This document shows, in pieces, positions 6,284-63,806 of a stretch of 64,000 nucleotides of DNA (position 1 is its first letter; the number at the start of each line of letters is the position of its first letter). The translations under genes were made by a program, and so were the position numbers. The DNA comes from Bacteroidaceae bacterium (GTDB taxonomy: Bacteria > Bacteroidota > Bacteroidia > Bacteroidales > Bacteroidaceae). The DNA is taken from the NCBI GenBank assembly GCA_017427065.1, contig JAFRTL010000008.1, forward strand, positions 50,180 through 114,179, read 5' to 3'. The notes below the pieces were generated by a model. It saw only the letters and a program-made list of their open reading frames with translations, was not told the origin of the DNA and made no database searches.

Positions 6284-6410
6284 CTAGTTAGGAAAAAATA
6301 TTTTTCTAGTTAGCAAAAATAAAATCAAGGCTTATGATTGTTTAATCAAAGCCTTTAACTATGTAATCAGAGCTTATGATTATGTAATCAAAGGTTATGA
6401 TTTGATTTTA
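6284..6410. repeat. Intergenic array on a 21-22 bp register (array A)
   Basis: Two units starting CTAGTTAG lie 22 bp apart (6284, 6306), each followed by an A-run and T-run. They pass directly into four units of a different sequence, AATCAAAGCTTATGATT and variants, spaced 21 bp (6323, 6344, 6365, 6386). The array fills most of the divergent gap between the serpin and surE (6118-6558); the rest of that gap holds only the two promoters and A/T-rich DNA. Confidence 0.8.
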
Positions 6411-6531
6411 TCTGCTTAAAAAGATAATTATGTATCGTTGCTTTTCGGTTTTTGTTCCGTAAGATAATATATAATGTGTAGTTGTGTGCAGTTTTTTCAT
6501 TTCTTCATGCTTGAAACATGGCAAAATTTTG

Positions 6532-6539
6532 TATCTTCG
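6532..6539 (+). promoter_or_regulatory. Predicted promoter -7 box for surE-lpxB
   Basis: TATCTTCG, the common C variant of TAnnTTTG, lies 19 bp before the surE ATG, with a TTG at 6511-6513 at the usual -33 distance. Confidence 0.65.
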
Positions 6540-6558
6540 CGAATTATTTGAAAGAAGT

Positions 6559-7320
6559 ATGAAGAAAGATCGACCGCTGATATTGATTTCCAACGATGAT
6601 GGAGTGAACGCCAAAGGACTGAAGGAACTCATCCGTTTCCTCCGTCCTATGGGCGATTTGATAGTGATGGCTCCAGACGCCCCGCGCTCTGGTTTTGCAT
6701 GTTCCATCAGTTGCTATGTGCCAGTGAGTTACGAATTGGTACATGAAGAAGAAGGACTGGTCGTTTATAAGTGTTCTGGAACCCCGACGGATTGTACGAA
6801 ACTGGCGTTTTATTCCGTGCTTGATAGAAATCCTGATTTGGTGATAGGAGGTATCAATCATGGAGACAACTCATCGGTGAATGTGCATTATTCTGGTACG
6901 ATGGGGGTGGTTATCGAGGGTTGTTTGCGTGGTTTCCCTTCCATCGGCTTTTCACTTTGCGACCATGATCTGGACGCTGATTTTGCACCATTGGAGAGGT
7001 ATGTGCAACGCATTACAAAGAAAGTGCTTGAAGAAGGACTTCCCTCACTGACGTGTCTGAATGTGAATTTTCCAAAGGCCTCAACGTTTAAGGGCGTAAA
7101 GATTTGTCAGCAAGCTAAAGGACTTTGGATAAAAGAATGGATAAAGCGCGAAGATCAAGAGAGGCATGTGTTCGATATGGCTGGCGTATTCATGGATACA
7201 GATGCCGATTGTGAACTCAATGATCATTGGGCTTTGCGAAATGGCTATGTGGCCATCACGCCTACTACAGTGGATGCCACTGACTATGAGATGATTAAGC
7301 GGATGAACGACTGGTTTTAA
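6559..7320 (+). CDS. surE: 5'/3'-nucleotidase SurE
   Basis: A 253-residue metal-dependent phosphatase that removes phosphate from nucleoside monophosphates. The metal-binding ISNDDG is at residues 10-15 and [15 protein letters not shown] carries the conserved Asn/Ser ligand region. The ATG at 6559 is chosen because the protein then begins [15 protein letters not shown] as in the family and the -7 box lies just upstream; an ATG at 6484 would extend it upstream through the promoter. lpxB starts 4 bp after the stop, so the two genes form one unit. Confidence 0.95.
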
Positions 7321-7323
7321 GCA

Positions 7324-8496
7324 ATGAAATACTACTTGATAGTTGGAGAAGCCTCGGGCGACCTTCATGCATCCAATCTGATGAGGGCGTTAAAGGAGAT
7401 AGATGCGGAAGCAGACTTCCGTTTCTTTGGAGGCGACTTGATGGCTTCGGAGGGAGGAACCTTGGTGAAGCACTATCGAGAGTTGGCTTATATGGGTTTT
7501 ATCCCCGTTCTTTTGCATCTCCCCACGATCTTCAAGAACATGCGTTTCTGTAAGCAGGATATTGTGGAATGGGAACCGGATGCCTTGATTTTAGTGGATT
7601 ATCCTGGATTCAATTTGAAAATTGCAAAGTATATCCATCGCCATACTTCCATTCCTGTGTTCTACTATATTTCTCCGAAAATTTGGGCGTGGAAGGAGTA
7701 TCGCATTAAGAACATCAAGCGCGATGTGGATCAGCTGTATTCTATCCTCCCATTCGAAGTGGACTTTTATGAAGGTAAGCACCATTATCCTATTCATTAT
7801 GTAGGAAATCCAACACTTGATGAAGTGGCGCTTTACAAACATACTCATCCACAGAGTTTTGAGAGATTTGTTGCAGAAAATAACCTGTCAGAAAAACCTA
7901 TTATCGCCTTATTGGCAGGAAGTAGGAAACAGGAGATCAAGGACAACCTCTCACGAATGATAGAGGCCGCTTCTGTATTTGAGGACTTCCAATTAGTTTT
8001 GGCAGGTGCTCCAGGTATATCTCCTACATTCTATCAGGATTTCCTCCATGGAAAGAAGGTGAAGGTGGTCTTTGGAAAAACATATGAATTGCTTAACCAT
8101 GCCTCTTATGCTTTGGTAACCTCTGGAACAGCAACGTTAGAAACGGCATTGTTCCGTGTGCCACAAGTGGTTTGCTATTATACTCCTGTAGGAAAGTTCA
8201 TCTCCTTTATGCGAAAGTTGGTCCTGAGTGTCAAATACATCTCTTTAGTCAACTTAGTTGCAGGACATATGGTTGTTCAAGAATTGGTAGCAGATACGAT
8301 GACTGTGGAAAACATGCGCAACGAATTGGATCGTTTAATACATGATAAAACCTACAGACAACGAATGCTGGAAGGTTATTCGGAAGTTGCCCAAAAATTA
8401 GGAGCCACAGGAGCACCTCAACATGCTGCAAGTTTAATGACTGACTATTTGCTTAGAAAACGAAGCAGTACAGATAAATCACAGAAGCAGGGATAG
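7324..8496 (+). CDS. lpxB: Lipid-A-disaccharide synthase LpxB
   Basis: A 390-residue GT19 glycosyltransferase that joins UDP-diacylglucosamine and lipid X to give the lipid A disaccharide at the inner face of the inner membrane. The N-terminus VGEASGDLHASNL is the family signature; PKIWAWKEYRIKNI and LLAGSRKQEI and TSGTATLETAL mark the C-terminal UDP-binding half. It overlaps the end of the convergent cdsA by 44 nt, so the two mRNAs are complementary over at least that stretch. Presence of lpxB supports a normal lipid A outer membrane. Confidence 0.95.
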   Translation: MKYYLIVGEASGDLHASNLMRALKEIDAEADFRFFGGDLMASEGGTLVKHYRELAYMGFIPVLLHLPTIFKNMRFCKQDIVEWEPDALILVDYPGFNLKIAKYIHRHTSIPVFYYISPKIWAWKEYRIKNIKRDVDQLYSILPFEVDFYEGKHHYPIHYVGNPTLDEVALYKHTHPQSFERFVAENNLSEKPIIALLAGSRKQEIKDNLSRMIEAASVFEDFQLVLAGAPGISPTFYQDFLHGKKVKVVFGKTYELLNHASYALVTSGTATLETALFRVPQVVCYYTPVGKFISFMRKLVLSVKYISLVNLVAGHMVVQELVADTMTVENMRNELDRLIHDKTYRQRMLEGYSEVAQKLGATGAPQHAASLMTDYLLRKRSSTDKSQKQG

Positions 8497-9286
8497 CTAT
8501 AAGAGAACTGTCAAATCTGTCTAGTAAACCTCCATGTCCAGGTAAAAAGTTGCCAGAATCCTTCACTCCCAATTGACGTTTCATTAAGGATTCTACCAAA
8601 TCTCCCCAAGTGCCAAAGACAACAACTGTAAGCGCCAATCCTGCCCATTCCAGATAAGTCATAAATGGGAAGAAGTAACCCAAAGCAAAAGAAGCCGCAA
8701 GAGTCACTATTCCTCCACCAATACTGCCTTCCCATGATTTCTTTGGAGAAATACGTTCAAACAAACGATGTTTTCCTATTAAGCATCCCACACAATAAGC
8801 TCCTGTATCATTCAGCCATAAGAAAATGAAGACAGACAATGGGAAGATAGGATTATAAACAATGCCTTCTGTCAAACCATTCCTTTGGAATCCCAAAATA
8901 TTCAAAAGAGCAAAAGGCAAAGCTATATAAAGTTGGCTAAGCATAGAATATGCCCAGTTGCCTATAGGATTCTCACGTTTCTGATACAGTTCTTTGATTA
9001 AGATGAAAAGCAGAAACGCCAGATAAGGCATGAAGATGCGGATTCCCTCTACTTCCATAGAATAAGCCAAGAATGCCAAGAACAGAAACGCGGCTCCTAA
9101 AGATGTCAGGATTTTGCTAATGTAAACCTCCCCGCTCTGATTAACCAATTGTCCAAACTCAAACACAGTAAGCATACTGACAAGAGCAAACAGAAATCCG
9201 AAGGAAAGTGGATTGTACAAGATACAACCCACAATGATGACAACAAACAAAATACCTGTAATGGTACGTGTAATGAAGTTTTTCAT
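8453..9286 (-). CDS. cdsA: Phosphatidate cytidylyltransferase CdsA
   Basis: A 277-residue multi-pass membrane enzyme making CDP-diacylglycerol from phosphatidate and CTP, the branch point of phospholipid synthesis. About seven or eight hydrophobic segments are visible, and the CdsA signature appears as KDSGNFLPGHGGLLDRFDS near the C-terminus, with its Asp pair. The start overlaps the ftsH stop by ATGA, so it is the last gene of rsfS-ftsH-cdsA. Its 3' end overlaps lpxB on the other strand. Confidence 0.95.
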   Translation of the reverse strand: MKNFITRTITGILFVVIIVGCILYNPLSFGFLFALVSMLTVFEFGQLVNQSGEVYISKILTSLGAAFLFLAFLAYSMEVEGIRIFMPYLAFLLFILIKELYQKRENPIGNWAYSMLSQLYIALPFALLNILGFQRNGLTEGIVYNPIFPLSVFIFLWLNDTGAYCVGCLIGKHRLFERISPKKSWEGSIGGGIVTLAASFALGYFFPFMTYLEWAGLALTVVVFGTWGDLVESLMKRQLGVKDSGNFLPGHGGLLDRFDSSLIAIPASVIYLYCFVF

Positions 9287-11304
9287 TGTTTGTCCTCCTC
9301 TTTATCTTTTCCCTCTGTTGGTGGTTCCTTTTCTTTCTCAGCAGCTTCCTTGTATTCCTTGGAAATCTCGTTGGCACTCATAATCTCTTCGGAACGTGAA
9401 GCCCAAGGACGTTTCCCAAAGATATGCTCCACATCCTCTGCAAAGATGACTTCCTTCTCAATCAGTTGCTGTGCCAATTGATTATGTCCTTCTTGATGTT
9501 CGCGAAGGATGTTTTTGGCACGTTCATACTGCTCATTGATCATACGCTTCACTTCTTCATCTATCAGTTCTGCAGTCTTTTCGCTGTATGGTTTATTAAA
9601 GGCATACTCTTGGTTTGGATTGTAGTAGCACAAATTAGGAAGCTTGTCGCTCATACCCATGTAGGTAATCATGGCAAATGCCTGTTTTGTCACACGTTCC
9701 AAATCGTTCATGGCACCAGAGGATATGCGTCCGATAAACATCTCTTCTGCAGCACGACCTCCCAAAGTGGCGCACATTTCATCGAGCATCTGTTCCTTCG
9801 TTGTAATCTGGCGCTCTTCTGGAAGGTACCAAGCGGCTCCTAAAGCCCTTCCGCGAGGAACTATGGTCACTTTAATAAGAGGATTGGCATATTCCAACAG
9901 CCAAGAGATGGTGGCATGACCAGCTTCATGGATGGCAATGGAACGTCGTTCTTCCTCTGTTGTTATCTTGGTTTTCTTTTCCAAACCGCCCACTATACGA
10001 TCTACAGCATCCAAGAAATCCTGCTTCTCCACCACTTTCTTCTTATGCCGTGCAGCGATCAAAGCAGCTTCGTTGCAAACATTTGCGATATCTGCACCAG
10101 AGAAACCTGGAGTCTGACGTGCCAGAAGATCCACATCCACGTTTTTATCCATTTTAATCGGACGGAGATGTACTCCGAAAATGGCTTTACGTTCATTCAA
10201 ATCGGGTAAGTCCACATGAATTTGTCGATCAAAACGACCTGCACGAAGCAGTGCTTGATCAAGCACATCCACTCGGTTGGTTGCAGCAAGAATAATTACA
10301 CCACTGTTAGAACCGAATCCATCCATTTCAGTAAGCAACTGGTTGAGGGTGTTTTCACGCTCGTCATTTCCACCCATGGCAGCAGCTTTGGCACGTGCCC
10401 TTCCTACTGCATCAATCTCATCGATAAACACGATGCAAGGAGCTTTCTCCTTTGCTTGTCTAAAAAGGTCGCGTACACGTGAAGCGCCCACACCAACAAA
10501 CATTTCCACGAAGTCGGAACCAGCTAATGAGAAGAAAGGCACGTCTGCTTCGCCGGCTACTGCTTTGGCTAATAACGTCTTACCTGTTCCTGGAGGGCCC
10601 ACCAGTAATGCACCCTTAGGGATTTTACCTCCTAATTCTGTGTATTTTTGAGGTTCCTTCAGAAATTCTACAATTTCTTGAACTTCTTGTTTGGCTTCAG
10701 AAAGACCCGCGACATCTTTGAAAGTAACTTTCACAGAATTGTCTTTCTCAAATAACTGCGCTTTAGATTTTCCAACACTGAAAATACCGCCAGTACCACC
10801 AGCTCCACCACCCATTCTGCGGAATATCCAAATGAAGAAAAGCACTGTAAGTGCCAAAGGCCACAATTGCCAAAGTAAAGTTCCAAGCGTATTCTGACGC
10901 TTCTCATAGCTGATAGAACCGTCATAATGCATTTCGTCTTTTTCTTTTTGGATGAATTCTCCTAAACTTTCTCTGGAAGGAGCTTCTGTGGAGATTATAG
11001 GATTACGTTTCGCACGCTCAGCATCCTCCTTGAATACAGTGTTGATATAGTCTTGTTTGATGTAAGCCTCCACCGTATTGTCATCAAATCCAACGACTTT
11101 GCTCACGTATCCATTTCTTATGTATTGTTGGAATTCATCGTATGTGACTACCTTCGATGCTGTTCCGCCTTCACTAGATAACCAGAGCAAGATAAGCATT
11201 GTGGCGATAATAAGATAAAGCCAGCTCAAGTTGAACTTGGGCATGTTAATCTTATTATTTGACTTGTTGTCTCTATTATTATTGTTGTTCTTCTGTCTCT
11301 CCAT
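9283..11304 (-). CDS. ftsH: ATP-dependent zinc metalloprotease FtsH
   Basis: A 673-residue membrane-anchored AAA+ protease that degrades misfolded membrane proteins and regulators. Order: Asn-rich N-terminus, membrane segment about 28-44, periplasmic domain, second membrane segment about 147-162, Walker A GPPGTGKT (about 236-243), Walker [10 protein letters not shown] (about 291-299), arginine-finger region, and zinc motif HEAGH near 465. The run of Asn at residues 6-20 is encoded by a repetitive AAT/AAC tract and may vary in length. It lies 6 bp after rsfS. Confidence 0.97.
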
Positions 11305-11310
11305 AGCGTG

Positions 11311-11670
11311 TCAATCTAATTCAGGAACATGTTCCAGTTTTGCGTCTGCCCAAAGGTGTTCCAAGTCATAGAATTCTCTAATCTCAGGCAGGAAGATGTG
11401 AACAATTACATCGCCATAATCCATAGCAACCCATTGTGCATTTTGAACTCCAATGGTAGCTAAAGGCTTCAATCCCGTTTCCTTTTGTGCAGTTTCTTTC
11501 ACTGAGTCGGTTATTGCCAATAGTTGGGTAGGGGAGTTGCCTTGGCAGATAATGAAATAATTGCAGATAGTATCGTTAATGTCCGAAAGGTCTGCAACAA
11601 CGATGTGACTGCCCTTCTTGTCTTGTATTCCTTTAGTAATTTGACGTATTAACTCTTTGGATATGTTCAT
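11311..11670 (-). CDS. rsfS: Ribosomal silencing factor RsfS
   Basis: A 119-residue Iojap/RsfS protein that binds uL14 on the large subunit and blocks subunit joining when nutrients are short. Family features are DISDINDTICNYFIICQG-type text (here DLSDINDTICNYFIICQGN), the WVAMDYGDVIVHIF block and EFYDLEHLWADA at the end. It is the first gene of the rsfS-ftsH-cdsA unit, a common Bacteroidales arrangement. Confidence 0.95.
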   Translation of the reverse strand: MNISKELIRQITKGIQDKKGSHIVVADLSDINDTICNYFIICQGNSPTQLLAITDSVKETAQKETGLKPLATIGVQNAQWVAMDYGDVIVHIFLPEIREFYDLEHLWADAKLEHVPELD

Positions 11671-11703
11671 TCCTTTTTTAATTCTTTATAATTATAATGA
11701 GTG

Positions 11704-11711
11704 CAAAGATA
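11704..11711 (-). promoter_or_regulatory. Predicted promoter -7 box for rsfS-ftsH-cdsA
   Basis: Minus-strand TATCTTTG, 33 bp before the rsfS ATG, matching TAnnTTTG. Confidence 0.65.
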
Positions 11712-11825
11712 CATTATTATTCTCTTTCTTCCACTTCATTTATAGAAAAGTGCTACATTTTTTATTTTTTTTATGTTCTAGTCAATAACGAAGAAAGTTT
11801 TTTTGAAAAAATATCCAATAAAAAG

Positions 11826-11855
11826 TTTGCAATTAGAGTTTTCTTCGTACCTTTG
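11826..11855 (+). promoter_or_regulatory. Promoter of tRNA-Gln
   Basis: TTTG (11826-11829) and TACCTTTG (11848-11855) are separated by 18 bp, a close match to the Bacteroidetes -33/-7 promoter, 17 bp before the mature tRNA 5' end. Confidence 0.75.
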
Positions 11856-11872
11856 CAACCGCAAAACGGAAT

Positions 11873-11943
11873 TGGAGTATGGTGTAATGGTAACACTACA
11901 GATTCTGGTCCTGTCATTCCAGGTTCGAATCCTGGTACTCCAA
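11873..11943 (+). tRNA. tRNA-Gln (anticodon CTG)
   Basis: A complete cloverleaf: acceptor TGGAGTA/TACTCCA (7 bp, U1-A72 as usual for Gln), D stem GTG/CAC, anticodon loop TTCTGGT with CTG at positions 34-36, T stem CCAGG/CCTGG with loop TTCGAAT, discriminator A. The anticodon stem has one A-C mismatch at its base. CCA is not encoded. It stands alone with its own promoter and terminator between two minus-strand genes. Confidence 0.93.
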
Positions 11944-11947
11944 CTAT

Positions 11948-11976
11948 AAAGCCCTGACGATTGTCGGGGCTTTTTC
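11948..11976 (+). terminator. Rho-independent terminator of tRNA-Gln
   Basis: An 11-bp stem, AAAGCCCTGAC and GTCGGGGCTTT with loop GATT and one G-U pair, followed by a T-run, begins 4 bp after the tRNA. Confidence 0.9.
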
Positions 11977-11985
11977 TTATAAAAG

Positions 11986-12018
11986 AAATCCCTCAATTTT
12001 CATTAATTGGAGGGATTT
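11986..12018 (-). terminator. Terminator after the DUF349 gene
   Basis: Arms AAATCCCTC (11986-11994) and GAGGGATTT (12010-12018) pair over 9 bp; on the minus strand the hairpin is followed by a T-rich run. It lies 20 bp beyond the DUF349 stop. Confidence 0.75.
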
Positions 12019-12037
12019 CAATGATATTCGAATTATT

Positions 12038-13852
12038 TTATTCTTGTTCTTCTTGCTGCTCTAAGATATTCTTGTCCATTTCTCTGATTTTCTCTTCAGC
12101 CTCCTTGATATCCTCTTGCAGTTTTTCAACCTTTTTATTCAACTCATCCAGTAAACTGTTGCCTTTCTTTGAAGAAGCCGTGAGGAAACCTAAGTTGTTC
12201 TGATAAGTAATCAGTTCGCTCTTCATAGTTTCGTAGTTGCGTACCAATTTCTCGCGCTCCTTGTAAATGCTTTGTGCACCCTTATCCTGAGCATCCTTTA
12301 CCGCAGACTTGAAGTTGTTGAACTTCTTGCCTACACTACTCATGTTGAACTGCTTGAAAGCGTTGTCCACCAGTTCGTGATACTGCTTGTAAATTTTGTC
12401 TTTCTCTCTAAAAGGTACATGTCCTGTTTCATTCCACTCCTTCATCAAATCGCGTACCTTCTGTGCCACCTCAGAATCTTCTGCTTGTTGCTGCAGTTCC
12501 TGCAGTTGGCTGATGATAGCCTTCTTCTTTTCCAGATTGATCTGTTCTGTACTGCGTTGTGAAGAAGTAGCCTTTCCCTTCTGCTCGAAGAAATAATCGC
12601 AAGCGCCAATGAACTTTTTCCATATGGCATCAGAATATTTTCTGGCAACAGGACCGATCTCTTTCCACTCCTTCTGAAGTTTTACGAATTGTTCGCTGGT
12701 AGCTTTCCAGTCAGTGCTTTCCTTTAATGCCTCTGCCTTTTCTATCAGTGCACGTTTCTTCTCCAGATTCTGAGTCATCACATCCTTTGTCTCCTTGAAG
12801 AACTCAGCCTTTTTGTGGAAGAATTCATCGCAAGCTTTGCGGAAACGTTCGAATATCTTGGTATTCATTTTCTGAGGAGCAAAGCCTATGGTCTTCCACT
12901 TATTTTGCAAAGCGATGATTTCCTTTGTCTTGTTGTCCCAGTCAGAGAAGTTTTTCAGTTCGTTAAAGTCAATGCCCTCTACGATCTCGCAGATGACAGT
13001 CTTCTGATCCAAGTTCTGACGTTCCTGTTCCTTTAATTGCTCAAAGTGTTTCTGATGCCTACGGTTAACGATAGTAGAGGCATTCTTGAAACGTGTCCAG
13101 ATTTCCTCACGCAAGTCTTTTGCCACAGGACCCGTATCGCGGAACTCCTGATGTAACTTCTGCAACTGATGGAAAGCTGATACAACATCTTCTTCTTCGG
13201 TCAGACGTTCAGCAGCTTCGCACAGATGTATTTTGATGGCTTGGTTCTTCTTGAAGTCATATTCGCGGAACTCATTGTTCAGTTTCAGCAGATCATAGAA
13301 TTTCTCTACGTTAAGCTGGTAGTTTTTCCAAAGCTCGTTGGCTTTGCCTTGAGGAATCAGAGTAACTTCGTTCCACTGTTGTTGCAGACGCTTAAACTCA
13401 GCATAGTTTTTATTAGGATCTTCCGTAGATTCGATGAGGTCTTTCAGTTCCTCGATAATGGAAAGTTTTACCTGAAGATTCATCTCTTTCTGTTTCTCCA
13501 ACTCTGCATTAGTTTGGTTGCGCTTTTCTTTAATGGCTGACATGAGTTGCTTGAACTCCTCCTCCAAAGGATCGGGAGTAGGCAGGAAGTCGGCTTCTGC
13601 GCCACCGTTTGCGATGAACTGCTGCTTAGCTTCCTCAGCTTCAGAAACATGGATTTTGTAGAATGCCTGCTTCAGACCATCAATTTCTACTCTTGACGCG
13701 CTTTCCACGTCGTTTTCAATCTCTTTAAGCCTGTTCAAAATGTCTTCCTTGGTCAGTTTTTTCGCAGGTTCTGCGACAACTTCTTCCACTGGGCTTTCTA
13801 CAGGTGCATCCACTGGTTGTTCTGGGATGTTGTTTTTCTCAATGTCCGTCAT
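12038..13852 (-). CDS. DUF349 repeat protein (coiled-coil, unknown function)
   Basis: A 604-residue soluble, highly charged protein with several copies of the DUF349 three-helix repeat, recognised by W-K-x-I/T-G and FRKACDEFF-type segments (for example EWKEIGPVARKYSDAIWKKF near 395-415 and NKWKTIGFAPQKMNTKIFERF near 320). The N-terminus is acidic and Pro/Glu-rich, and the last 60 residues form a strong coiled coil. No enzyme motif is present. DUF349 proteins are widespread in Bacteroidetes and Actinobacteria, with no firm role. It is monocistronic. Confidence 0.88.
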   Translation of the reverse strand: MTDIEKNNIPEQPVDAPVESPVEEVVAEPAKKLTKEDILNRLKEIENDVESASRVEIDGLKQAFYKIHVSEAEEAKQQFIANGGAEADFLPTPDPLEEEFKQLMSAIKEKRNQTNAELEKQKEMNLQVKLSIIEELKDLIESTEDPNKNYAEFKRLQQQWNEVTLIPQGKANELWKNYQLNVEKFYDLLKLNNEFREYDFKKNQAIKIHLCEAAERLTEEEDVVSAFHQLQKLHQEFRDTGPVAKDLREEIWTRFKNASTIVNRRHQKHFEQLKEQERQNLDQKTVICEIVEGIDFNELKNFSDWDNKTKEIIALQNKWKTIGFAPQKMNTKIFERFRKACDEFFHKKAEFFKETKDVMTQNLEKKRALIEKAEALKESTDWKATSEQFVKLQKEWKEIGPVARKYSDAIWKKFIGACDYFFEQKGKATSSQRSTEQINLEKKKAIISQLQELQQQAEDSEVAQKVRDLMKEWNETGHVPFREKDKIYKQYHELVDNAFKQFNMSSVGKKFNNFKSAVKDAQDKGAQSIYKEREKLVRNYETMKSELITYQNNLGFLTASSKKGNSLLDELNKKVEKLQEDIKEAEEKIREMDKNILEQQEEQE

Positions 13853-13996
13853 CTTTCTTATGTTTATTTTTTTTAACGGTTATACGTGACCTTTTGCCAC
13901 AATCAGGCACAAATTAAAGGAATAAAAACGTTATTTCATACTTTTTTGTCATTTTTTTTCACTCTTGTCCCCCATTTTATGTTGAAAAGCATTATT

Positions 13997-17217: not shown

Positions 17218-17308
17218 GTCTAATATGTATGTTTATGCAGTTTCTGTAGATTTTTCTGCATATATATTCATCTCCTGAAATAGGCTCTAAAATAGGCATT
17301 TTATTTTT

Positions 17309-17373
17309 CTAACGCAGAAAAATTTTTATCCTCGTTAGAAAAATATTTTTTCTGTGCGTAGGAACAAAAAAGC
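17309..17373. repeat. Intergenic array on a 21-22 bp register (array B)
   Basis: Three diverged units start at 17309 (CTAACGCAG), 17331 (CTCGTTAG) and 17352 (CTGTGCGTAG), each followed by an A-rich run; the first two also carry a T-run. Spacing is 22 and 21 bp. The 330-bp gap between the flippase and pepD otherwise holds A/T-rich DNA and the pepD promoter. Confidence 0.65.
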
Positions 17374-17483
17374 TGTTCGATGGTTTTCCTTGAGAAATGT
17401 ATAAATATGCAATATTGCATTTCATTTCAATTATTTATAAAAATTGAGAAACACGATGCTTTCTGCGAAATAATCTTAATCAG

Positions 17484-33680: not shown

Positions 33681-33740
33681 ATAAAAAAAAAGATACTTGG
33701 AGAGATATTCGTATTTTTACTACGTGTAGTCATTTTTTTT

Positions 33741-33894
33741 CTTGTGCACAGCAACATTTTTTCTTACACACAGCAACAAATACTCTCACGAGTAAAAATT
33801 ATATTTCTAGTTAGGAAAAATTTTTTTCCTAGTTAGAAAAAAAGATTTTGCCAGTTTTTTAATTTTTCTATCCTAATTGAGAAGAAATGAAAGA
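33741..33894. repeat. Intergenic array, seven 22-bp units in strict register (array C)
   Basis: Units start exactly 22 bp apart at 33741, 33763, 33785, 33807, 33829, 33851 and 33873, each with a C. Units 1 and 2 share CACAGCAACA, units 4 and 5 share CTAGTTAG plus A- and T-runs, and units 3, 6 and 7 are more diverged. The array fills the divergent gap between dxs and the GSCFA gene; the remainder of the gap holds the two promoters. Confidence 0.8.
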
Positions 33895-47371: not shown

Positions 47372-47459
47372 CAGTACACCATTTTTTATTTCTCTAGTTA
47401 GAAAAATATTTTTTCCTAGTTAGAGAAATCGTTTTCACTAGTTAAAGGAGATGGCGCTT
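47372..47459. repeat. Intergenic array on a 22-bp register (array D)
   Basis: CTAGTTAG at 47394 and 47416 and CTAGTTAAA at 47438 are spaced exactly 22 bp; the first two carry A- and T-runs. A more diverged unit (CAGTACACC then T-run) starts at 47372. The array lies in the divergent gap of DPP IV and the radical SAM gene and ends 6 bp before the latter's -7 box. Confidence 0.8.
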
Positions 47460-54982: not shown

Positions 54983-55085
54983 CTTCATAGTCAGTCATGG
55001 CTATGACTGAGCTAAGTCCTAACCTTGACTGAGCTAAATCACCGTGATGAAAGTTCTAAGTCACCGTAATGACTGAGCAATATGG
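54983..55085. repeat. Intergenic array on a 22-bp register (array F, different sequence)
   Basis: Units start at 55005, 55027, 55049 and 55071, exactly 22 bp apart, with the shared text GACTGAGCTAAGTCACCG in mixed states; a partial unit precedes them. The sequence is unlike CTAGTTAG but the period is the same as in arrays A-E. Confidence 0.8.
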
Positions 55086-55105
55086 TGTGCGTAAGCGTTA
55101 CAAAT

Positions 55106-55343
55106 GAATTTATGCCAAAACACCTCACACCTCACCTTTGCTTAGTTACCTCATGATAGATATTCATTTTCCGTGGTGAGGTGTTATCATGACACCTCAC
55201 CACTCCTCACCACTCCTCACCAAGTTGTATGCATAGAGGTGATATGTGGTGAGGTGTTGTTTCAACACCTCACCTTTGTTAATATAAATGAATCAATAAT
55301 TATTTCGCGCAAAGTGAGGTGTGAGGTGTTTTTGCATAAATTC
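55106..55343. repeat. Palindromic element 1 (CACCTCAC boxes)
   Basis: The ends, 55106-55140 and 55310-55343, are inverted repeats with one mismatch and one 1-bp gap. Inside are two perfect 12-bp hairpins: GTGGTGAGGTGT (55173-55184) with its complement at 55192-55203, and GGTGAGGTGTTG (55248-55259) with its complement at 55263-55274, loop TTT. Between them CCTCACCACT is repeated at 10-bp steps (about 55195-55222). The box ACCTCAC occurs many times on both strands. Confidence 0.85.
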
Positions 55344-55864: not shown

Positions 55865-55882
55865 ATCGCTGTTTAGCGGGTG

Positions 55883-55890
55883 CAAAGATA
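55883..55890 (-). promoter_or_regulatory. Predicted promoter -7 box of tRNA-Met
   Basis: Minus-strand TATCTTTG, 18 bp before the tRNA 5' end. Confidence 0.7.
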
Positions 55891-55997
55891 GGTACTTTAT
55901 TTAAATCTGCCAAACTTTATGTAATTTTTTTGCGCAAATGTTTTCTGCTTTCGATAAAAGTATCTAATATTGCACCGCATTTGCAAACAGTAAGTTT

Positions 55998-56393: not shown

Positions 56394-56437
56394 GAAACTT
56401 TCTCATATTTTATACCCCTTGCAAACCGATTTTATGC

Positions 56438-56445
56438 TATCTTCG
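56438..56445 (+). promoter_or_regulatory. Predicted promoter -7 box of lptF/G-ribBA
   Basis: TATCTTCG, 18 bp before the permease ATG, with TTG at 56419-56421. Confidence 0.6.
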
Positions 56446-56463
56446 CAGCGAAATTGGTAAAGT

Positions 56464-58440
56464 ATGCTCCGAATAAAGAAACTAGACATATTTATTCTGA
56501 AAAGTTTCTGCCTGTTGTTCACGGGCACCTTCTTCATCTGTCTCTTTATCTTCATGATGCAGTTTCTGTGGAAATATGTGGACCAGATGGTGGGAAAGGG
56601 ATTGGATATATCGGTGTTGGCACAGTTTTTCATCTATGCTGGACTGACGTTGGTACCTGCTTCCTTACCGTTGGCGGTACTTCTTGCTGCATTGATTACT
56701 TTTGGAAACTTTGGAGAGCGTTTTGAACTGATGGCCATGAAGGCCGCAGGAGTCTCGCTTGTGCAGATATTACGTCCTCTGGTGGTCTTCATCGCTTTCA
56801 TCTGTGTCGTCTCGTTTTATTTCCAGAATGTTGTAGGACCTTACGCACAGTCGAAATTATGGACATTGGTACTTTCCATGAAGCAGAAATCTCCTGAACT
56901 TGATATTCCAGAAGGGGCTTTCTATGACCAGATTCCAGGTTATAATATCTATGTGGGGTATAAGAACCGGGATACTGGCGGACTCTTCGATGTGTTGATT
57001 TATAATTTTCAGAATGGATTTGACAATGCGCAGATTATTTATGCTGACTCTGCGCACATGGAATTGACATCGGATAAGCAACATTTATATCTGCATCTCT
57101 ACAATGGGGAGGAGTTCGAGAACCTCCGCTCACAGTCGGTTAGTCAGGAGAGTGTGCCTTACAGAAGAGAGAGTTTCGTGGAGAAGCATGCGCTGATAGA
57201 GTTTGATTCCAACTTCAACATGATGGATGAGGGTATCATGGATAATCAGTCTATCAGCAAGAACATGGCTCAGTTGGAGGCGGATGCTGACTCAATGATG
57301 CAGGTGGTTGATAGTTTGGGCAGCATGAACTTTCATGATGTGGTGGATCGGGTGTATCTGCCCGTTGGTATGGAACCAAAGTTGCTTGTAAGGGGAGAAC
57401 TGAATACCAAGACGGAAGAGGAAACAGCAGAAGAGGAGAAGAAGGAATATATGACCAGCGCTAAGGACTTGACGCACATCACTTCGACTACCTATGTGAA
57501 TGTAGACAGCATCTATAATACTGCCAGTTTGGATGACAGAGAGAAGATTGTTGGGGATGCTTTTGCGGAAGTGGCGCAAGTGCAGGGTGACTGGATGAAC
57601 AAGGATACGAACATGAAGATTGTGATTGGTAACATGCGTCGCCATCAGACGGCTTGGCACGAGAAGTTGACGCTTTCGCTGGCTTGTATGATCTTCCTCT
57701 TTATCGGGGTGGCCTTGGGTGGCATCATCCGTAAAGGTGGGTTGGGTATGCCAGTAGTAATCTCTGTCATTATCTTCATTTTCTACTATATAGTGAACAA
57801 TACGGGATTCAAGATGGCGAGGGAAGGAAAGTGGCTGATATGGTCGGGCATGTGGCTGAGTACGGCAGTGCTGGCACCTATTGGGGCGTTCTTGACTTAC
57901 AAGAGCAACAATGACTCGGTGGTGATCAATATGGATCAAGTGACGGCTGCTGTGAAAAAATTCTTCGGCATTAGAAGTAAACGCAATTTAGTACGCAAAG
58001 ATGTAATCATCGATGATCCTGACTATCCTACATTGCCAGAGCGTCTGGAGGCCTTGAGTGCGGAATGTGCTGATTATATGGCACTGAAGAATCTGAAACA
58101 TGCGCCTAACTACTATACGCTTTGGACTAGTACGGAGAATGATGTGGAGGCAGAGAATATTAATGAACAATTGGAGGCTTTGATAGAGGAAATGTCTAAT
58201 ACGCGTTCTGGATATCTGCTGAATGCGTTGAACAACTACCCTGTGTTATCTACCAATGCTCATGTGAGACCATTTAATAACCGTTGGCTGAATTTAGCTT
58301 GCGGAATATTTTTCCCTTTGGGATTATTTTTCTATATTCGTATCTGGATTTATAGATTGCGATTGCAGAAAGATCTGGAACGCGTGGTAGAGGTTGATAA
58401 TGAAGCCATTAACGTAGTTAAAGGCATTTTGACGGAATAA
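56464..58440 (+). CDS. LptF/LptG family permease (YjgP/YjgQ)
   Basis: A 658-residue inner-membrane subunit of the lipopolysaccharide export machine. N-terminal helices (about 10-30, 50-75, 95-115) with VGKGLDISVLAQFFIYAG and ELMAMKAAGVSLVQILRP, a periplasmic beta-jellyroll (about 120-390), then C-terminal helices with FIGVALGGIIRKGGLGMP (about 413-430). It is longer than Proteobacterial LptF or LptG (near 360) because of an extended middle part and a C-terminal cytosolic region (about 485-610) before a last hydrophobic segment. ribBA follows 9 bp later. Confidence 0.92.
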   Translation: MLRIKKLDIFILKSFCLLFTGTFFICLFIFMMQFLWKYVDQMVGKGLDISVLAQFFIYAGLTLVPASLPLAVLLAALITFGNFGERFELMAMKAAGVSLVQILRPLVVFIAFICVVSFYFQNVVGPYAQSKLWTLVLSMKQKSPELDIPEGAFYDQIPGYNIYVGYKNRDTGGLFDVLIYNFQNGFDNAQIIYADSAHMELTSDKQHLYLHLYNGEEFENLRSQSVSQESVPYRRESFVEKHALIEFDSNFNMMDEGIMDNQSISKNMAQLEADADSMMQVVDSLGSMNFHDVVDRVYLPVGMEPKLLVRGELNTKTEEETAEEEKKEYMTSAKDLTHITSTTYVNVDSIYNTASLDDREKIVGDAFAEVAQVQGDWMNKDTNMKIVIGNMRRHQTAWHEKLTLSLACMIFLFIGVALGGIIRKGGLGMPVVISVIIFIFYYIVNNTGFKMAREGKWLIWSGMWLSTAVLAPIGAFLTYKSNNDSVVINMDQVTAAVKKFFGIRSKRNLVRKDVIIDDPDYPTLPERLEALSAECADYMALKNLKHAPNYYTLWTSTENDVEAENINEQLEALIEEMSNTRSGYLLNALNNYPVLSTNAHVRPFNNRWLNLACGIFFPLGLFFYIRIWIYRLRLQKDLERVVEVDNEAINVVKGILTE

Positions 58441-58449
58441 ACTTATAGG

Positions 58450-59664
58450 ATGTCTATGGATAAGATAAAGTTGGATACAATAGAGGAAGCATTAAAAGAT
58501 TTTGCCAAGGGTAAGTTCGTGATTGTGGTAGATGATGAGGACAGGGAGAACGAAGGTGACTTGATCGTTGCTGCTGAGAAAATCACTCCTGAGCAGGTCA
58601 ACTTTATGTTGAAGAATGCCAGAGGTGTACTTTGTGCACCTATTACCATTTCTCGTTGTAGGGAATTGGACCTTCCTCGTCAGGTATCTGACAATACCTC
58701 TGTATTGGGTACTCCTTTCACTGTAACTGTGGATAAGTTGGAAGGATGCACGACGGGGGTATCTGCCAAAGACAGAGCAGCTACCATTCGCGCATTGGCA
58801 GATCCTACGTCTACACCTACCACTTTTGGTAGGCCAGGGCATGTAAATCCATTGTATGCGCAAGACAAAGGTGTGCTTCGCAGAGCTGGTCATACAGAGG
58901 CTACTATTGACTTGGCCCGTTTGGCAGGACTCTATCCTGCGGGGGCGTTAATGGAAATTATGAACGAAGATGGTACTATGGCACGACTGCCGGAACTTCG
59001 TAGGATGGCCGATGAATGGGGCTTGAAACTCATCTCTATTCACGACTTGATAGCTTTTCGTCTTAACCAGGAATCTATGGTTGAAAAGGGTGATGAGGTG
59101 AGTATGCCTACAGCCTTTGGTGATTTCCGTCTGATTCCTTTCCGTCAGAAATCCAACGGATTGGAACATATCGCACTTTTCAAAGGCTCTTGGGAATCTG
59201 ATGAACCTGTGTTGGTAAGGGTGCATTCTTCTTGTGCAACTGGAGATATCTTTGCTTCTAAGCGTTGTGACTGTGGCGAGCAGTTGCATAAGGCCATGCA
59301 GATGATAGAAAAGGCTGGAAAAGGCGTGATAGTTTATCTGATTCAAGAGGGGCGTGGCATAGGATTGATGGACAAAATCCGGGCTTATAAGTTGCAAGAG
59401 GAAGGTATGGATACGGTGGAGGCTAATCTCTGCCAAGGGCATTTGGCGGATGAACGTGATTATGGCGTGGGAGCTCAGATTTTGCGTGAACTGGGGGTGC
59501 ATAAGATGCGTCTGATTACCAATAACCCTGTAAAACGAGTGGGTTTGGAAGCCTATGGTTTGCAAATTACAGAGAATGTGCCTATAGAAATTGCTCCTAA
59601 TGAATACAATCAGCGCTATCTGCGTACAAAGAAAGAGCGTATGGGCCACAACCTTCATTTATAG
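58450..59664 (+). CDS. ribBA: Bifunctional DHBP synthase/GTP cyclohydrolase II RibBA
   Basis: A 404-residue fusion feeding riboflavin synthesis. Residues 1 to about 205 make 3,4-dihydroxy-2-butanone 4-phosphate ([11 protein letters not shown], with metal ligand Glu; [14 protein letters not shown]). Residues about 210-404 open the GTP ring: [18 protein letters not shown] holds the zinc cysteines, and [18 protein letters not shown] the GTP-binding loop. All catalytic parts are present. It is probably co-transcribed with lptF/G. Confidence 0.96.
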
Positions 59665-59701
59665 TAGAAAAAGTATTAATTATTCATAATTCATCATTGA
59701 T

Positions 59702-60895
59702 ATGAACCAGTTATCCAATCGTTTGAACAGCCTGTCTCCATCGGCTACGTTGGCGATGTCGCAGAAGAGTGCTGAACTGAAAGCACAAGGTGTAGATGTG
59801 ATTAATCTGAGTGTGGGAGAGCCAGACTTCAACACTCCCGACCATATTAAGGAAGCTGCTAAGAGGGCTATAGATGATAATTATTCACGTTATTCTCCTG
59901 TGCCAGGATATCCAGACCTGCGGAATGCCATTGTGAAGAAGTTGAAAAACGAAAATGGTTTGGATTTCACAGCTGCCCAGATCTCTTGTGGCAATGGTGC
60001 GAAGCAGTGTGTTTGCAATGCTGTGCTTGTCTTGGTGAATCCTGGGGATGAAGTGATCGTTCCTGCACCTTATTGGGTAAGTTATACAGAGATGGTGAAA
60101 CTGGCAGAAGGTACTCCTGTTATTGTTCATGCGGGGATAGAACAGGATTTCAAGATCACTCCTGCTCAATTGGAGGCTGCTATCACGCCTAAGTCGAAAG
60201 CACTGATTCTATGTTCTCCTTCTAATCCAACTGGTTCTGTGTATAGCAAGGAAGAACTGGCAGGTTTGGCTGCAGTGTTGGCAAAACATCCTCAGGTGTT
60301 TGTCATTGCTGATGAAATTTATGAACACATTAATTATGTGGGTAAACATGAGAGTATAGCTCAGTTCGCTGAGATAAGAGATCGGGTGGTAATCATCAAT
60401 GGTGTTTCCAAGGCTTATGCGATGACGGGATGGCGTATAGGTTTTGTGGCAGGTGCAGAATGGATAGTAAAGGCTGTGAATAAATTGCAAGGTCAGTATA
60501 CATCAGGACCTTGCTCTGTGTCTCAAAAAGCTGCAGAAGCTGCGTACAACGGACCTCAGGAACCAGTAGAGGAGATGCGTCAGGCATTTGAACGTAGACG
60601 AGACTTGATTGTAAAACTGACAAAGGAGGTGCCTGGCTTAGAAGTGAATGTTCCAGACGGTGCATTCTATCTTTTCCCTAAATGCAGTTCTTTCTTTGGC
60701 AAATCATTTGGTTCAAGGAGAATCAATAATGCGGATGACTTGGCAATGTATTTGCTGGAGGAAGGGCATGTGGCTTGTGTAAGTGGGGCGGCATTTGGCG
60801 ATCCTAACTGTTTCCGTATGAGTTATGCCACAAGTGATGAGAATATCGTTGAGGCGATACGCCGAATTAAAGAAGCTTTAGAAAAGCTGAAATAA
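59702..60895 (+). CDS. Class I pyridoxal-phosphate aminotransferase
   Basis: A 397-residue aspartate aminotransferase-like enzyme (subgroup I-gamma). NLSVGEPDFNTPDHIKEAA, CSPSNPTGSVYSKEEL, ADEIYEHINY and NGVSKAYAMTGWRIGFVAGAEW (Lys near 235 binds PLP) are all standard, and the C-terminal Arg is in FRMSYATSD. The most likely substrate pair is aspartate/glutamate, with related activity on prephenate possible. A strong terminator follows. Confidence 0.93.
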   Translation: MNQLSNRLNSLSPSATLAMSQKSAELKAQGVDVINLSVGEPDFNTPDHIKEAAKRAIDDNYSRYSPVPGYPDLRNAIVKKLKNENGLDFTAAQISCGNGAKQCVCNAVLVLVNPGDEVIVPAPYWVSYTEMVKLAEGTPVIVHAGIEQDFKITPAQLEAAITPKSKALILCSPSNPTGSVYSKEELAGLAAVLAKHPQVFVIADEIYEHINYVGKHESIAQFAEIRDRVVIINGVSKAYAMTGWRIGFVAGAEWIVKAVNKLQGQYTSGPCSVSQKAAEAAYNGPQEPVEEMRQAFERRRDLIVKLTKEVPGLEVNVPDGAFYLFPKCSSFFGKSFGSRRINNADDLAMYLLEEGHVACVSGAAFGDPNCFRMSYATSDENIVEAIRRIKEALEKLK

Positions 60896-60913
60896 GGATT
60901 TGATGAAAATAAT

Positions 60914-60944
60914 AAAGCCCGGCTTTTTTAAAGTCGGGCTTTTA
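60914..60944. terminator. Bidirectional terminator between the aminotransferase and ferredoxin genes
   Basis: A 13-bp stem based on AAAGCCCG and CGGGCTTT, flanked by T-run on one side and A-run on the other, serves both convergent units. Confidence 0.9.
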
Positions 60945-60961
60945 TTATTTTAGAAGTGTGA

Positions 60962-61135
60962 TTACTCTGGTAAAGAAATAGCCTCATTAGGGCATGCACC
61001 AGCGCAAGTGCCACATTCTACACAGCTATCAGGGTCGATCTCGTAGTGAGAAGCGCCTTCTGATATTGCTCCTACTGGACACTCATCTACGCAAGTTCCG
61101 CAGGAAATACAATCGTCACTAATTACGTAAGCCAT
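60962..61135 (-). CDS. 2[4Fe-4S] ferredoxin, 57 residues
   Basis: A small gene read on the minus strand from the ATG at 61133-61135. The protein begins MAYVISDDCISCGTC and has two clostridial-type cluster motifs, CISCGTCVDECP (residues 9-20) and CVECGTCAGACP (38-49), each Cx2Cx2CxxxCP. It carries electrons at low potential for anaerobic oxidoreductases. It stands alone, with a terminator behind it and its own promoter. Confidence 0.95.
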   Translation of the reverse strand: MAYVISDDCISCGTCVDECPVGAISEGASHYEIDPDSCVECGTCAGACPNEAISLPE

Positions 61136-61169
61136 TTTATTAAGAATTAAATTGTTAAAAAATGCTCGA

Positions 61170-61177
61170 CAAAAATA
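61170..61177 (-). promoter_or_regulatory. Predicted promoter -7 box of the ferredoxin gene
   Basis: Minus-strand TATTTTTG, 34 bp before the ferredoxin ATG. Confidence 0.55.
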
Positions 61178-61247
61178 CGTCTTTTATTCTTTCCTTGTAT
61201 CGGTTTAAAGGGTTAAATATTCAATTTATATATCTTCTAAATAAGTT

Positions 61248-63026
61248 TTAACTGGAAAATTCAAGAGCAAACTCATTTTTTAAATCCAGAAGTGTGTGAT
61301 TTTTTTCTGCCATTTCTTGGAATCGTTCTGTCTTGGTGAAAGCTTTGGGTTGTTCTTTACTTTCATTGATAGTGATGATTATCTCAAGAAGGTCATTATG
61401 TAGAGTTTTATGTAAGTATTGCTCTATATCTGGTAATATGGCTTGGTAATCATTGGCTGCTAATTTGTTGTCCACCTTGATTTCGATTTTCGACTCATCG
61501 AGTAGATCGATTGGGGTATTGAGCATTTTTTTTGCCATTGCCACTTGTTCAAAAGGCAGGTTGTTGGCATATTGCTCCCATTTGCTCTTTAAGTCATTTA
61601 AACTGATTGGCTGTTTTTCCAAAGTGGTAGCAGAGGCACTTTCTTTGGGCGCCTGTGTTGTCTCTTTGGAAGCGTCTTTAGACCGTTTCGTAATGGAAAT
61701 ACTCAAAGAGGATATGTCTTTTATCTTCTTTACCTTATGTTCTTCTGTTTTAAGAGGTTGTGGGTAACTTACTCCCCCATTGGCAGTAACCTTCTCTGAT
61801 GCTTTCTCTGAGGGATGGACAGATGATGTTACTGGCTTATTGGGAGTAGCCGAGGCATTATTAGATGCCTGCTTATTGAATATGGGTTTTATAGTCGTCT
61901 TAGGGCTAAGCCCCCCCGACGGTTCTTCTTCGCTGCCAGTAAGTTGGGCTAACTGGATAAGCGTCAGCTCTACCAAAAAACGCTTGTTCTTGCTTAGTCG
62001 GTAACTTAAATCACAGTCGTTACAAAGTTTCATGGCTTTGTAAAGGAACGGCAACTGACATTTCTTGGCTTGTTCCTTATAACGATCTCTTATGCTGGCA
62101 CCAACTTCCAAGAGTGAAGTAGTGGCTTCGTCTTTGCTGACAAGTACGTCACGGAAGTGGGAACCTAATCCTGTAATGAAATTACCTGCATCAAACCCTT
62201 TGTTGATGACATCGTTGAGTAATAGTAAGCTCTCCGTAACTTTTCCTGCCAACAGATAATCTGTAAGATTGAAATAGTATTCATAATCCAGTACATTGAG
62301 GTTTTCCAAAACTTGCTGGTAGGTAATGTTCCCTTTGGTGAAGCTTGTCACTTGATCAAAGATGGAAAGAGCATCACGCATGCCTCCATCTGCTTTTAAA
62401 GCAATGACATTCAACGCTTCCGGTTCCGCATGAATGCCTTCTTTGGCAGCTACTCTAGCAAGATGTGCCACAATGTCTTCCACTCCTATGCGATTGAAAT
62501 CGTAAATTTGGCAACGCGACAAGATGGTGGGTAATATCTTATGTTTTTCTGTTGTGGCAAGAATGAAGATGGCATGACGAGGTGGTTCTTCCAGAGTCTT
62601 TAAGAAGGCATTAAAGGCAGATGTAGAGAGCATGTGTACCTCGTCAATGATGTATACCTTATATTTACCGATTTGAGGTGGTATGTGGACCTGCTCTACT
62701 AATTGTCGAATGTTATCAACGGAATTGTTTGACGCGGCATCCAACTCAAAAATGTTGAAAGAACGTTGCTCATTAAAGGCTTTGCATGATTCGCATTCAT
62801 TGCAGGCCTCTCCGTCTTCATGTGGATTCAGACAATTGATGGTCTTGGCAAAGATACGGGCGCAAGTGGTTTTTCCAACGCCTCGAGGACCACAGAACAA
62901 ATAGGCTTGTGCCAATTTTCCCGTAGCTATGGCATTCTTAAGCGTAGTAGTCAGTGCCTCTTGTCCCACGACGGACTCAAAAGTGGTGGGACGGTATTTT
63001 CGTGCGGATACGATATAATTCTCCAT
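61248..63026 (-). CDS. dnaX: DNA polymerase III subunits gamma/tau
   Basis: A 592-residue clamp-loader ATPase. P-loop FCGPRGVGKTTCARIF (about 44-59), zinc cysteines in CLNPHEDGEACNECESC, Walker B YIIDEVHMLS and sensor ILATTEKHKILPTILSRC give a complete AAA+ domain (1-240), then the collar domain (about 245-370) and a Ser/Thr/Lys-rich linker with a C-terminal domain (about 470-592). A run of eight A in the mRNA at codons near 497-500 is a possible slippage point (complement at 61526-61533). Confidence 0.95.
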   Translation of the reverse strand: MENYIVSARKYRPTTFESVVGQEALTTTLKNAIATGKLAQAYLFCGPRGVGKTTCARIFAKTINCLNPHEDGEACNECESCKAFNEQRSFNIFELDAASNNSVDNIRQLVEQVHIPPQIGKYKVYIIDEVHMLSTSAFNAFLKTLEEPPRHAIFILATTEKHKILPTILSRCQIYDFNRIGVEDIVAHLARVAAKEGIHAEPEALNVIALKADGGMRDALSIFDQVTSFTKGNITYQQVLENLNVLDYEYYFNLTDYLLAGKVTESLLLLNDVINKGFDAGNFITGLGSHFRDVLVSKDEATTSLLEVGASIRDRYKEQAKKCQLPFLYKAMKLCNDCDLSYRLSKNKRFLVELTLIQLAQLTGSEEEPSGGLSPKTTIKPIFNKQASNNASATPNKPVTSSVHPSEKASEKVTANGGVSYPQPLKTEEHKVKKIKDISSLSISITKRSKDASKETTQAPKESASATTLEKQPISLNDLKSKWEQYANNLPFEQVAMAKKMLNTPIDLLDESKIEIKVDNKLAANDYQAILPDIEQYLHKTLHNDLLEIIITINESKEQPKAFTKTERFQEMAEKNHTLLDLKNEFALEFSS

Positions 63027-63046
63027 AAAAAGTGTCTTTTCTCATG

Positions 63047-63054
63047 CAAAAGTA
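63047..63054 (-). promoter_or_regulatory. Predicted promoter -7 box of dnaX
   Basis: Minus-strand TACTTTTG, 20 bp before the dnaX ATG and 12 bp from the box of the divergent divIC gene. Confidence 0.6.
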
Positions 63055-63066
63055 ACAAAAAAATCC

Positions 63067-63074
63067 TATCTTTG
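63067..63074 (+). promoter_or_regulatory. Predicted promoter -7 box of the DivIC/FtsB gene
   Basis: TATCTTTG, 23 bp before the ATG at 63098. Confidence 0.65.
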
Positions 63075-63097
63075 CAAACAATATTAAGTCAGAGTGC

Positions 63098-63406
63098 ATG
63101 GACAGGTTTTCTTCTATTCTTCGTTTCTTTGGAAGGTATAAGTATATTATTACGCTTCTCATCTTCGGGGTCATCATCGTCTTCCTCGATGAGAACAGCA
63201 TTTTGCGTAGGATGGAAGTGGCAAACGAGGCTCGAAATACGCGTAATGAAATAGAAAAGTATCGCAAAGATTTTGAGGAAAGCACGTTGAGACTGAATGA
63301 GCTTGATGCTGATTCCAACTCTATCGAGCGCATTGCACGTGAGAAATATCTGATGAAGAAGCCCAACGAAGATGTGTATGTTTTTGAGGAGGATTTGGTG
63401 AAATGA
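63098..63406 (+). CDS. Septum formation initiator DivIC/FtsB
   Basis: A 102-residue bitopic protein: short cytosolic N-terminus, membrane helix about 17-31, a periplasmic coiled coil (about 34-72) and the family end IERIAREKYLMKKPNEDVYVF. FtsB/DivIC links FtsL and FtsQ at the division septum. The following small membrane protein overlaps by ATGA. Confidence 0.92.
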   Translation: MDRFSSILRFFGRYKYIITLLIFGVIIVFLDENSILRRMEVANEARNTRNEIEKYRKDFEESTLRLNELDADSNSIERIAREKYLMKKPNEDVYVFEEDLVK

Positions 63407-63735
63407 AACGATTGGTTCAACCATTAATGCTCGTCGGTGCTGTGCTCGCATTGGTGGGAGTAACATTTTATATCACGCATTGGTCTCTTTCTCCTTATAT
63501 GTATACGATCGGTGCAACGATGGTGGCATTGGCGCAAATAAATTCTCCTATTAAGACAGATAATCTCACTTTAAAGAGACTGCGTGCGCAGCAAATTATA
63601 GGAGCTATCTTGCTTGTTGTAACGGGTGCACTGATGTTTTTCACTCATCGGAACGAGTGGATTGTCTGCTTATCTGTAGCTGCTATTCTTGAACTTTATA
63701 CGGCTTTTAGAATCCCTCAGGAGTTAGAAAAATAA
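63403..63735 (+). CDS. Small four-helix membrane protein, unknown
   Basis: A 110-residue hydrophobic protein with four predicted membrane segments (about 6-24, 30-46, 62-82, 86-103) and both termini in the cytosol. I do not recognise the family. Its ATGA coupling to DivIC suggests a role near division or the envelope. The last codons, GAGTTAGAAAAATAA, read as a unit of the intergenic array that follows, so the array reaches up to the stop codon. Confidence 0.8.
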   Translation: MKRLVQPLMLVGAVLALVGVTFYITHWSLSPYMYTIGATMVALAQINSPIKTDNLTLKRLRAQQIIGAILLVVTGALMFFTHRNEWIVCLSVAAILELYTAFRIPQELEK

Positions 63736-63806
63736 CTTTCCTAGTTAGAGAAATATTTTTTGCTAGTTAGCAAAATAAAATTTCTTAGTTAGCTGAAATA
63801 ATTCTT
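63722..63806. repeat. Intergenic array on a 22-bp register (array E)
   Basis: CTAGTTAG at 63741 and 63763 and TTAGTTAG at 63785 are spaced exactly 22 bp, with A- and T-runs between. A fourth, looser unit (GAGTTAGAAAAATAAC) overlaps the end of the preceding gene. From here to the window end there is A/T-rich DNA and the promoter at 63931. Confidence 0.8.

Follow-up and report, generated by a model that had tools for sequence, protein, structure and literature searches.

What keeps a near-constant spacing of two helical turns in intergenic repeats whose sequence changes from place to place? The question is raised by a 64-kb stretch of a draft Bacteroidaceae genome, G000 (2.5 Mb in 27 contigs, 83% complete), lying at C5:50180-114179 and called the window below, in which six intergenic gaps carry short arrays of units (arrays A to F, Table 1). 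A preliminary description had proposed that all six share a 21-22 bp register, and shuffle tests bore this out in each region: 0/500 mononucleotide shuffles matched the period of arrays A, C, D, E and F, and array B gave p 0.006, the best lag being 22 in C, D, E and F, and 21 in A and B. Exact copies of one octamer core, CTAGTTAG, number eight in the window, as four pairs spaced exactly 22 bp apart, and the diverged cores of B and the differing sequences at the same period in F and in parts of A and C were likewise seen as described. Tentatively, we read the arrays as a dispersed family of intergenic near-palindromes whose phase and arms may be selected by a dimeric, abundant DNA-binding protein.

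The register extends well beyond the window. A sample of 852 kb, roughly one third of G000, was made up of the window and parts of C2, C4, C7, C14 and C26, with genes called by a simple custom open reading frame (ORF) rule. No other intergenic 8-mer was as enriched in it as CTAGTTAG: of 63 copies, 57 were intergenic and six fell within predicted genes, which make up 91% of the sample; counted in intergenic pieces with 20-bp margins, 59 were seen against 1.3 expected. The second most enriched intergenic word was the TATCTTTG box. Autocorrelation gave intergenic peaks at lags 21-22 and 42-44, and in genes only the codon period. Core-like neighbours at a shift of precisely 22 bp were present in 9 and in 14 of 35 arrays, compared with 0-3 at any other shift. 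These results support the view, taken in the preliminary description, of an intergenic, new-looking family with a two-turn period.

Elements are approximately 45-95 bp long and comprise two to five quasi-palindromic units, which need not be alike. Beside CTAGTTAG, units of types CTCGTGAG, CTAGTGAG, TCCATAGTTATGGA and CTGTGCGTAG occupy the same register: distances between sites of the five types were multiples of 22 to within 1 bp in 67/75 cases, and in 41/47 where the two types differed, a result favoured by the choice of types by eye from arrays already seen. More than one unit type was present in 21/41 site clusters. The extended core is a palindrome with an asymmetric centre, TTTTTYYCTA-GT-TAGRRAAAAA, the half-site in G000 being TAGRRAAA; T occupied position -3 in 57/57 intergenic cores and A position +10 in 93%, and the centre of intergenic CTANNTAG was GT/AC in 57 cases, AT in 4 and GC in 0. 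Spacer positions were symmetric in kind (R on the left, Y on the right) and mostly not compensatory, as expected of half-sites rather than of a paired stem. Since units 22 bp apart are separated by two helical turns, all dyads lie on the same side of the helix, where a dimeric nucleoid-associated or global protein could occupy them side by side.

Both place and arms are conserved. The nearest relative found among 158 genomes compared, G023, is 87% identical over a test stretch, and its fetched pieces, selected for carrying arrays, contained 30 core clusters. Of these, 11 mapped to the G000 sample: ten had exact cores at the same place, and the eleventh was array B, with diverged units, whose orthologous place in G023 holds different cores including one exact CTAACTAG. 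All eight window cores (arrays A, C, D and E) are kept. Among 19 aligned cores, 15 were identical, two were flipped from GT to AC, one was CTAATTAG and one ATAGTGAG. Changed bases amounted to 2/114 in the arms, 5/38 in the centre, 23/125 in the spacer and 229/960 in the flanks, so that arms are nearly frozen while centres flip. Unit types were replaced in place in arrays B and C and at C2:141846, and the register of array D is kept in a further genome, G114, over a flank 78% identical. The flips of the centre and the replacement of unit types suggest that templates were switched at the palindromes or that copies exchanged sequence. In contig C14, near 79500 (L081), a segment beside an array is inverted relative to G023 (L140) and bounded by inverted ATAACAGTTAG/CTAACTGTTAT; this segment is perhaps an invertible switch.

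Neither strand nor gene context appears to matter to the arrays. All eight window cores read on the + strand and none on the - strand, as the preliminary description had stated, but this did not hold genome-wide: exact pairs were 7 forward and 8 reverse, with alternation inside single arrays, and cores 22 bp apart were oriented ++ in 6 cases, -- in 6, +- in 5 and -+ in 4 (same-direction 12, inverted 9), which is random. The description had proposed curved DNA or a strand-reading site that orients replication. Predicted curvature, computed from wedge angles, did exceed the value for each window after dinucleotide shuffling (69.8 vs 42.5 degrees; higher in 28/35 arrays), but the A/T tracts invoked for it are not general, being absent from the G+C-rich form of genomes G039 and G059 described below. 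Core strand agreed weakly with local GC skew in G000 (39/57 cores, p 0.008; 20/27 arrays, p 0.019; 16/23 arrays without the window, p 0.09), and this was not repeated in G095 (100% complete, 10 contigs), where 43 listed arrays showed no strand runs (27 runs vs 22.8 when shuffled) and net strand agreed with skew, a noisy measure from 10-kb pieces, in only 3/11. Guidance by strand or replichore was rejected on the even orientation and the lack of strand runs in G095, the weak skew link in G000 being contrary; the strand part of the proposal is thus largely refuted, and as a whole it is highly improbable.

Gap choice was neutral. The 32 of 35 core clusters that could be assigned lay in 12 divergent, 16 tandem and 4 convergent gaps, against 10.0, 18.2 and 3.9 expected from gap length, and core strand was unrelated to gene strand (31/57). 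These proportions uphold the earlier statement that no single type of promoter or terminator describes the arrays; of the gap types it listed for the window, divergent (A, C and D) and tandem (B) were found, but none of the six is plainly convergent. Promoter-linked operators were rejected (12 divergent gaps against 10.0, with no preference for 5' gaps), as were intrinsic terminators, which lie downstream of genes and have a G+C-rich stem followed by a T run; gap types were neutral and spacers A/T rich. The density of long dyads was dropped as a measure because most long dyads in G000 resemble ordinary terminators. The strictness of the phase, a degeneracy mostly of the half-site kind, the frozen arms and the lack of regard for strand or gene context together suggest that a protein occupies one face of the helix, and such occupancy would select arm sequence and phase, not strand or gene context.

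Table 1. Arrays of the window, with the gaps in which they lie (coordinates of the 64-kb window)
Array	Position	Strand	Units	Gap and neighbours
A	6262..6410	.	exact CTAGTTAG at 6284 and 6306 with an A/T spacer between; diverged unit upstream; ~3 more units of 21-22 bp with a different sequence (TTATGATTATGTAATCA type); kept in G023	divergent: serpin gene (-) / surE (+)
B	17295..17385	.	diverged cores CTAACGCA (17309), CTCGTTAG (17331) and CTGTGCGTAG (~17352)	tandem
C	33705..33860	.	mosaic: CTTGTGCACAG and CTTACACACAG units, CTCACGAG, exact CTAGTTAG at 33807 and 33829	divergent: 1-deoxy-D-xylulose-5-phosphate (DXP) synthase gene (-) / GSCFA protein gene (+)
D	47380..47450	.	exact CTAGTTAG at 47394 and 47416, then CTAGTTAA (47438)	divergent: dipeptidyl peptidase (DPP) IV-like peptidase gene (-) / radical S-adenosylmethionine (SAM) gene (+)
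E	63715..63795	.	exact CTAGTTAG at 63741 and 63763, then TTAGTTAG (63785)	begins directly past the stop codon of the + strand ORF upstream
F	54985..55090	.	TGACTGAGCTAA-type units of 22 bp, without the CTAGTTAG core; conserved in G023	+ strand gene on one side, - strand tRNA on the other

Genomes G039 and G059 have this core and period too, but a G+C-rich spacer, TTCACCGCGGTGAA, inside an element of approximately 160 bp with conserved flanks; on its core and period, by which alone it is likened to the G000 arrays, this may be called a sister family. Its elements were intergenic in 20/20 cases and lay between convergent genes in 8/20. BLAST gave 43 and 69 matches, several of which are halves of the same hairpin. 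In G059 a related interior forms a 27-bp hairpin (L182:16976-17039, with 20 more copies, L223-L242, in G059 and G039) in which 12/27 pairs showed compensatory change among 18 distinct sequences (0/500 shuffles; slid controls at most 3), and its loop occurs in both orientations, the octamer AGCGGGCA in 2/21 copies and its reverse complement TGCCCGCT in 6/21. The single-unit spacer palindrome of G039 showed no covariation. That the G039 element came from a phage or plasmid was rejected for want of any match, the G039 unit having 0 occurrences in viral contigs.

The covarying stem, and the frequency of convergent gaps around it, speak for an action at the RNA level, in which transcribed tandem or nested hairpins would act on mRNA ends or stability; array A of the window also folds well as RNA (z -5.1), and C, D and E mildly (z -2.7, -2.0 and -2.5). 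G000 arrays, however, occur in divergent gaps at the rate expected from gap length, ignore the strand of the genes, and contain same-direction pairs as commonly as inverted ones. Rfam recognised no family in the window beyond two tRNAs, none at the arrays, and none over five G039/G059 elements. An RNA element is accordingly improbable as an account of the family.

A stronger competitor is a purely selfish repeat, similar to repetitive extragenic palindromes (REPs) or miniature inverted-repeat transposable elements (MITEs), which is mobilised in trans, has a 22-bp minisatellite as its interior and no host function, and owes its arms and flips to template switching during replication. Flips, mosaics and larger copies do indicate a family of repeats that disperses and whose copies are altered through exchange or template switching. 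Intergenic copies are dispersed and their flanks unrelated, most G000 loci having no flank in common beyond the array and conserved flanks being confined to the G039/G059 element. Two pairs of larger copies contain arrays (C26:70303 with C7:110370, 369 bp, 80%; C2:223235 with C4:116852, 299 bp, 75%). The G039/G059 element is multi-copy with its loop in both orientations, and the flipped centres make up 2/19 orthologous cores; template switching is known to homogenise arms and invert spacers (PMC8604942) and to maintain hairpins (PMC8794818). Yet strict phase and nearly frozen arms persist in old orthologous copies, and units of several types keep to a single register. A search that was not systematic found neither shared terminal repeats nor target duplications. 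A Y1/RAYT (REP-associated tyrosine) transposase (PF01797) was absent from G000 (83% complete), G029, G129, G039 and G059, and present in G095, G114 and G136. We consider the purely selfish account possible but doubtful, and protein occupancy and repeat spread may both hold.

At C4:116742-117060 (L068), an array sits within a larger repeat with inverted ends of approximately 27 bp (AACTGTATACTGTACACCTGTATAC), resembling C2:223235. G000 also has a second class of intergenic repeat (for example at C2:45811, C4:33015 and C4:36027), consisting of arrays of the heptamers AATTCTC, AATGTTC and TAAACTC, often inverted around a short insert with TCCGGATG. In the window, many direct and inverted copies of CACCTCAC / GTGAGGTG lie at 55109-55330, between array F and the tRNA.

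Several observations weigh against selection by a bound protein. Neither a protein nor a footprint was identified, nor any gene that co-occurs with the arrays; we infer the protein and its binding, as well as any influence on expression or the chromosome. Some arrays lie within the larger dispersed copies (299-369 bp), so that spread alone may explain their presence. Some compensation was seen at spacer pairs 2-13 (p 0.026) and 4-11 (p 0.006), a shifted control pair giving p 0.013, and the same-core element of G039/G059 has a clearly covarying hairpin, which favours a single-strand structure there. Indels were only somewhat rarer within arrays than outside (1/278 columns vs 14/1190), and plain inheritance can partly explain conservation at 87% identity.

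The core pair is patchy across the family. Exact pairs occurred in 9/149 genomes of the same genus and, with one mismatch allowed, in 28/301 genomes and 9/30 genera of the family (control, one hit), although several of the single family-wide hits differ in their spacers and could be due to chance. At 22-bp spacing, 4/198 genomes of the order matched (G000, G039 and two more with one hit each); at 21 bp, only G000 and two single hits were recovered among 296 genomes of the phylum. One scan of a contig collection, made at 21-bp spacing, matched an array of three units in L031 (record titled Prevotella sp. RUI435) and L032:6644-6904 (record titled Bacteroidetes bacterium), in which 11.4 units of 21 bp with CTAACTAG cores show a higher order of 42/84 bp. 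The G095 form, CCAGTTAG, gave 31 forward and 28 reverse matches at up to 2 mismatches; 12 of its arrays, selected for a same-direction pair, had three units in ten cases and four in two, with 36/36 exact cores intergenic and outer cores inverted in 9/12. E. coli had no match to array A, and the ten stretches that the bare core pair retrieved from viral contigs were, by eye, of short period or unrelated.

Spacing of 22 bp also recurs where the sequence does not. Surveyed over approximately 200 kb per genome, arrays at lag 22 were found in 8/73 gaps of G021, a sample lacking CTAGTTAG (other lags mean 0.35, maximum 2, with lag 44 also giving 8), and in 9/92 gaps of G059 (other lags 0.68), compared with 32/301 in G000 (2.7). 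The signal was weak in G029 (3/74 gaps), not distinct from lags 23 and 46 in G040 (4/71), and null in E. coli K-12 (0/83). In the other genomes of the genus these arrays have different sequences, many being dyads or long hairpins: dyads (p up to 0.05) were present in 8/17 arrays of G021 and G059 together, against 3/49 control arrays and 11/96 random pieces, with weak enrichment in G000 (5/32). A general 22-bp ruler, by which dyad arrays of two to five units stand at many loci in several genomes of the genus, varying in sequence and always spaced 22 bp, is a bolder and rather unlikely generalisation; if true, it would imply an architectural protein that reads symmetry or shape, or a process that copies dyads at a set interval of two turns, independent of any one sequence.

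No description of this array family was found in the open-access literature; as a bare string, CTAGTTAG occurs in 321 papers. The closest published system found, likened by description and not by sequence, is the BrickBuilt MITE of Porphyromonas gingivalis (Klein et al. 2015, PMC4596501), which the excerpted account describes as strictly intergenic, with approximately 20 copies per genome of a 23-nt tandem minisatellite having dyad symmetry and predicted long stem-loops; a leader and tail carry IS5-like terminal inverted repeats around a single type of unit repeated head to tail up to 22.8 times, some places are conserved in a sister species, and 22-nt tandem repeats are mentioned in strain W83. 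Set against that account, our arrays have in common the phylum Bacteroidota, dispersed intergenic copies, a near-identical period and dyad symmetry, but their period is 22 (sometimes 21) rather than 23, their two to five units are of several types and randomly flipped, and those of G000 appear to have no common leader or tail, a few lying in larger repeats and one of these having inverted ends.

Clusters of REPs, or bacterial interspersed mosaic elements (BIMEs), with their RAYT, as excerpted from PMC3733652, are likewise quasi-palindromes scattered between genes, clustered as mosaics and present in either orientation; they differ in that our arrays hold a fixed 22-bp phase and that no RAYT was found in G000, G039 or G059. 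Membership of the RAYT/REP system was rejected on the distribution of PF01797, for which G023 fell below the cut-off, and no GTAG/GGAG foot was seen beside the hairpin, by eye only, in the G000 core listing. Products of template switching at quasi-palindromes, from the excerpts of PMC8604942 and PMC8794818, share homogenised arms and inverted spacers, but are mutational footprints of any hairpin and leave the fixed 22-bp register unexplained.

Tandem operators of dimeric repressors or nucleoid proteins are palindromes at a two-turn spacing, all on the same face of the helix. The arrays have this geometry, but unlike such operators they stand at tens of loci without promoter preference, and no known regulator was matched. 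The array family resembles the known REP/BrickBuilt kind, its phasing probably held by a dimeric DNA-binding protein.

Intergenic repeats are little described in this phylum. A family that changes its sequence and keeps its phase and symmetry would permit a direct test of whether bacteria maintain helical register to suit an architectural protein. Counts of centre flips and of arm changes at its orthologous palindromes would allow selection to be separated from template switching.

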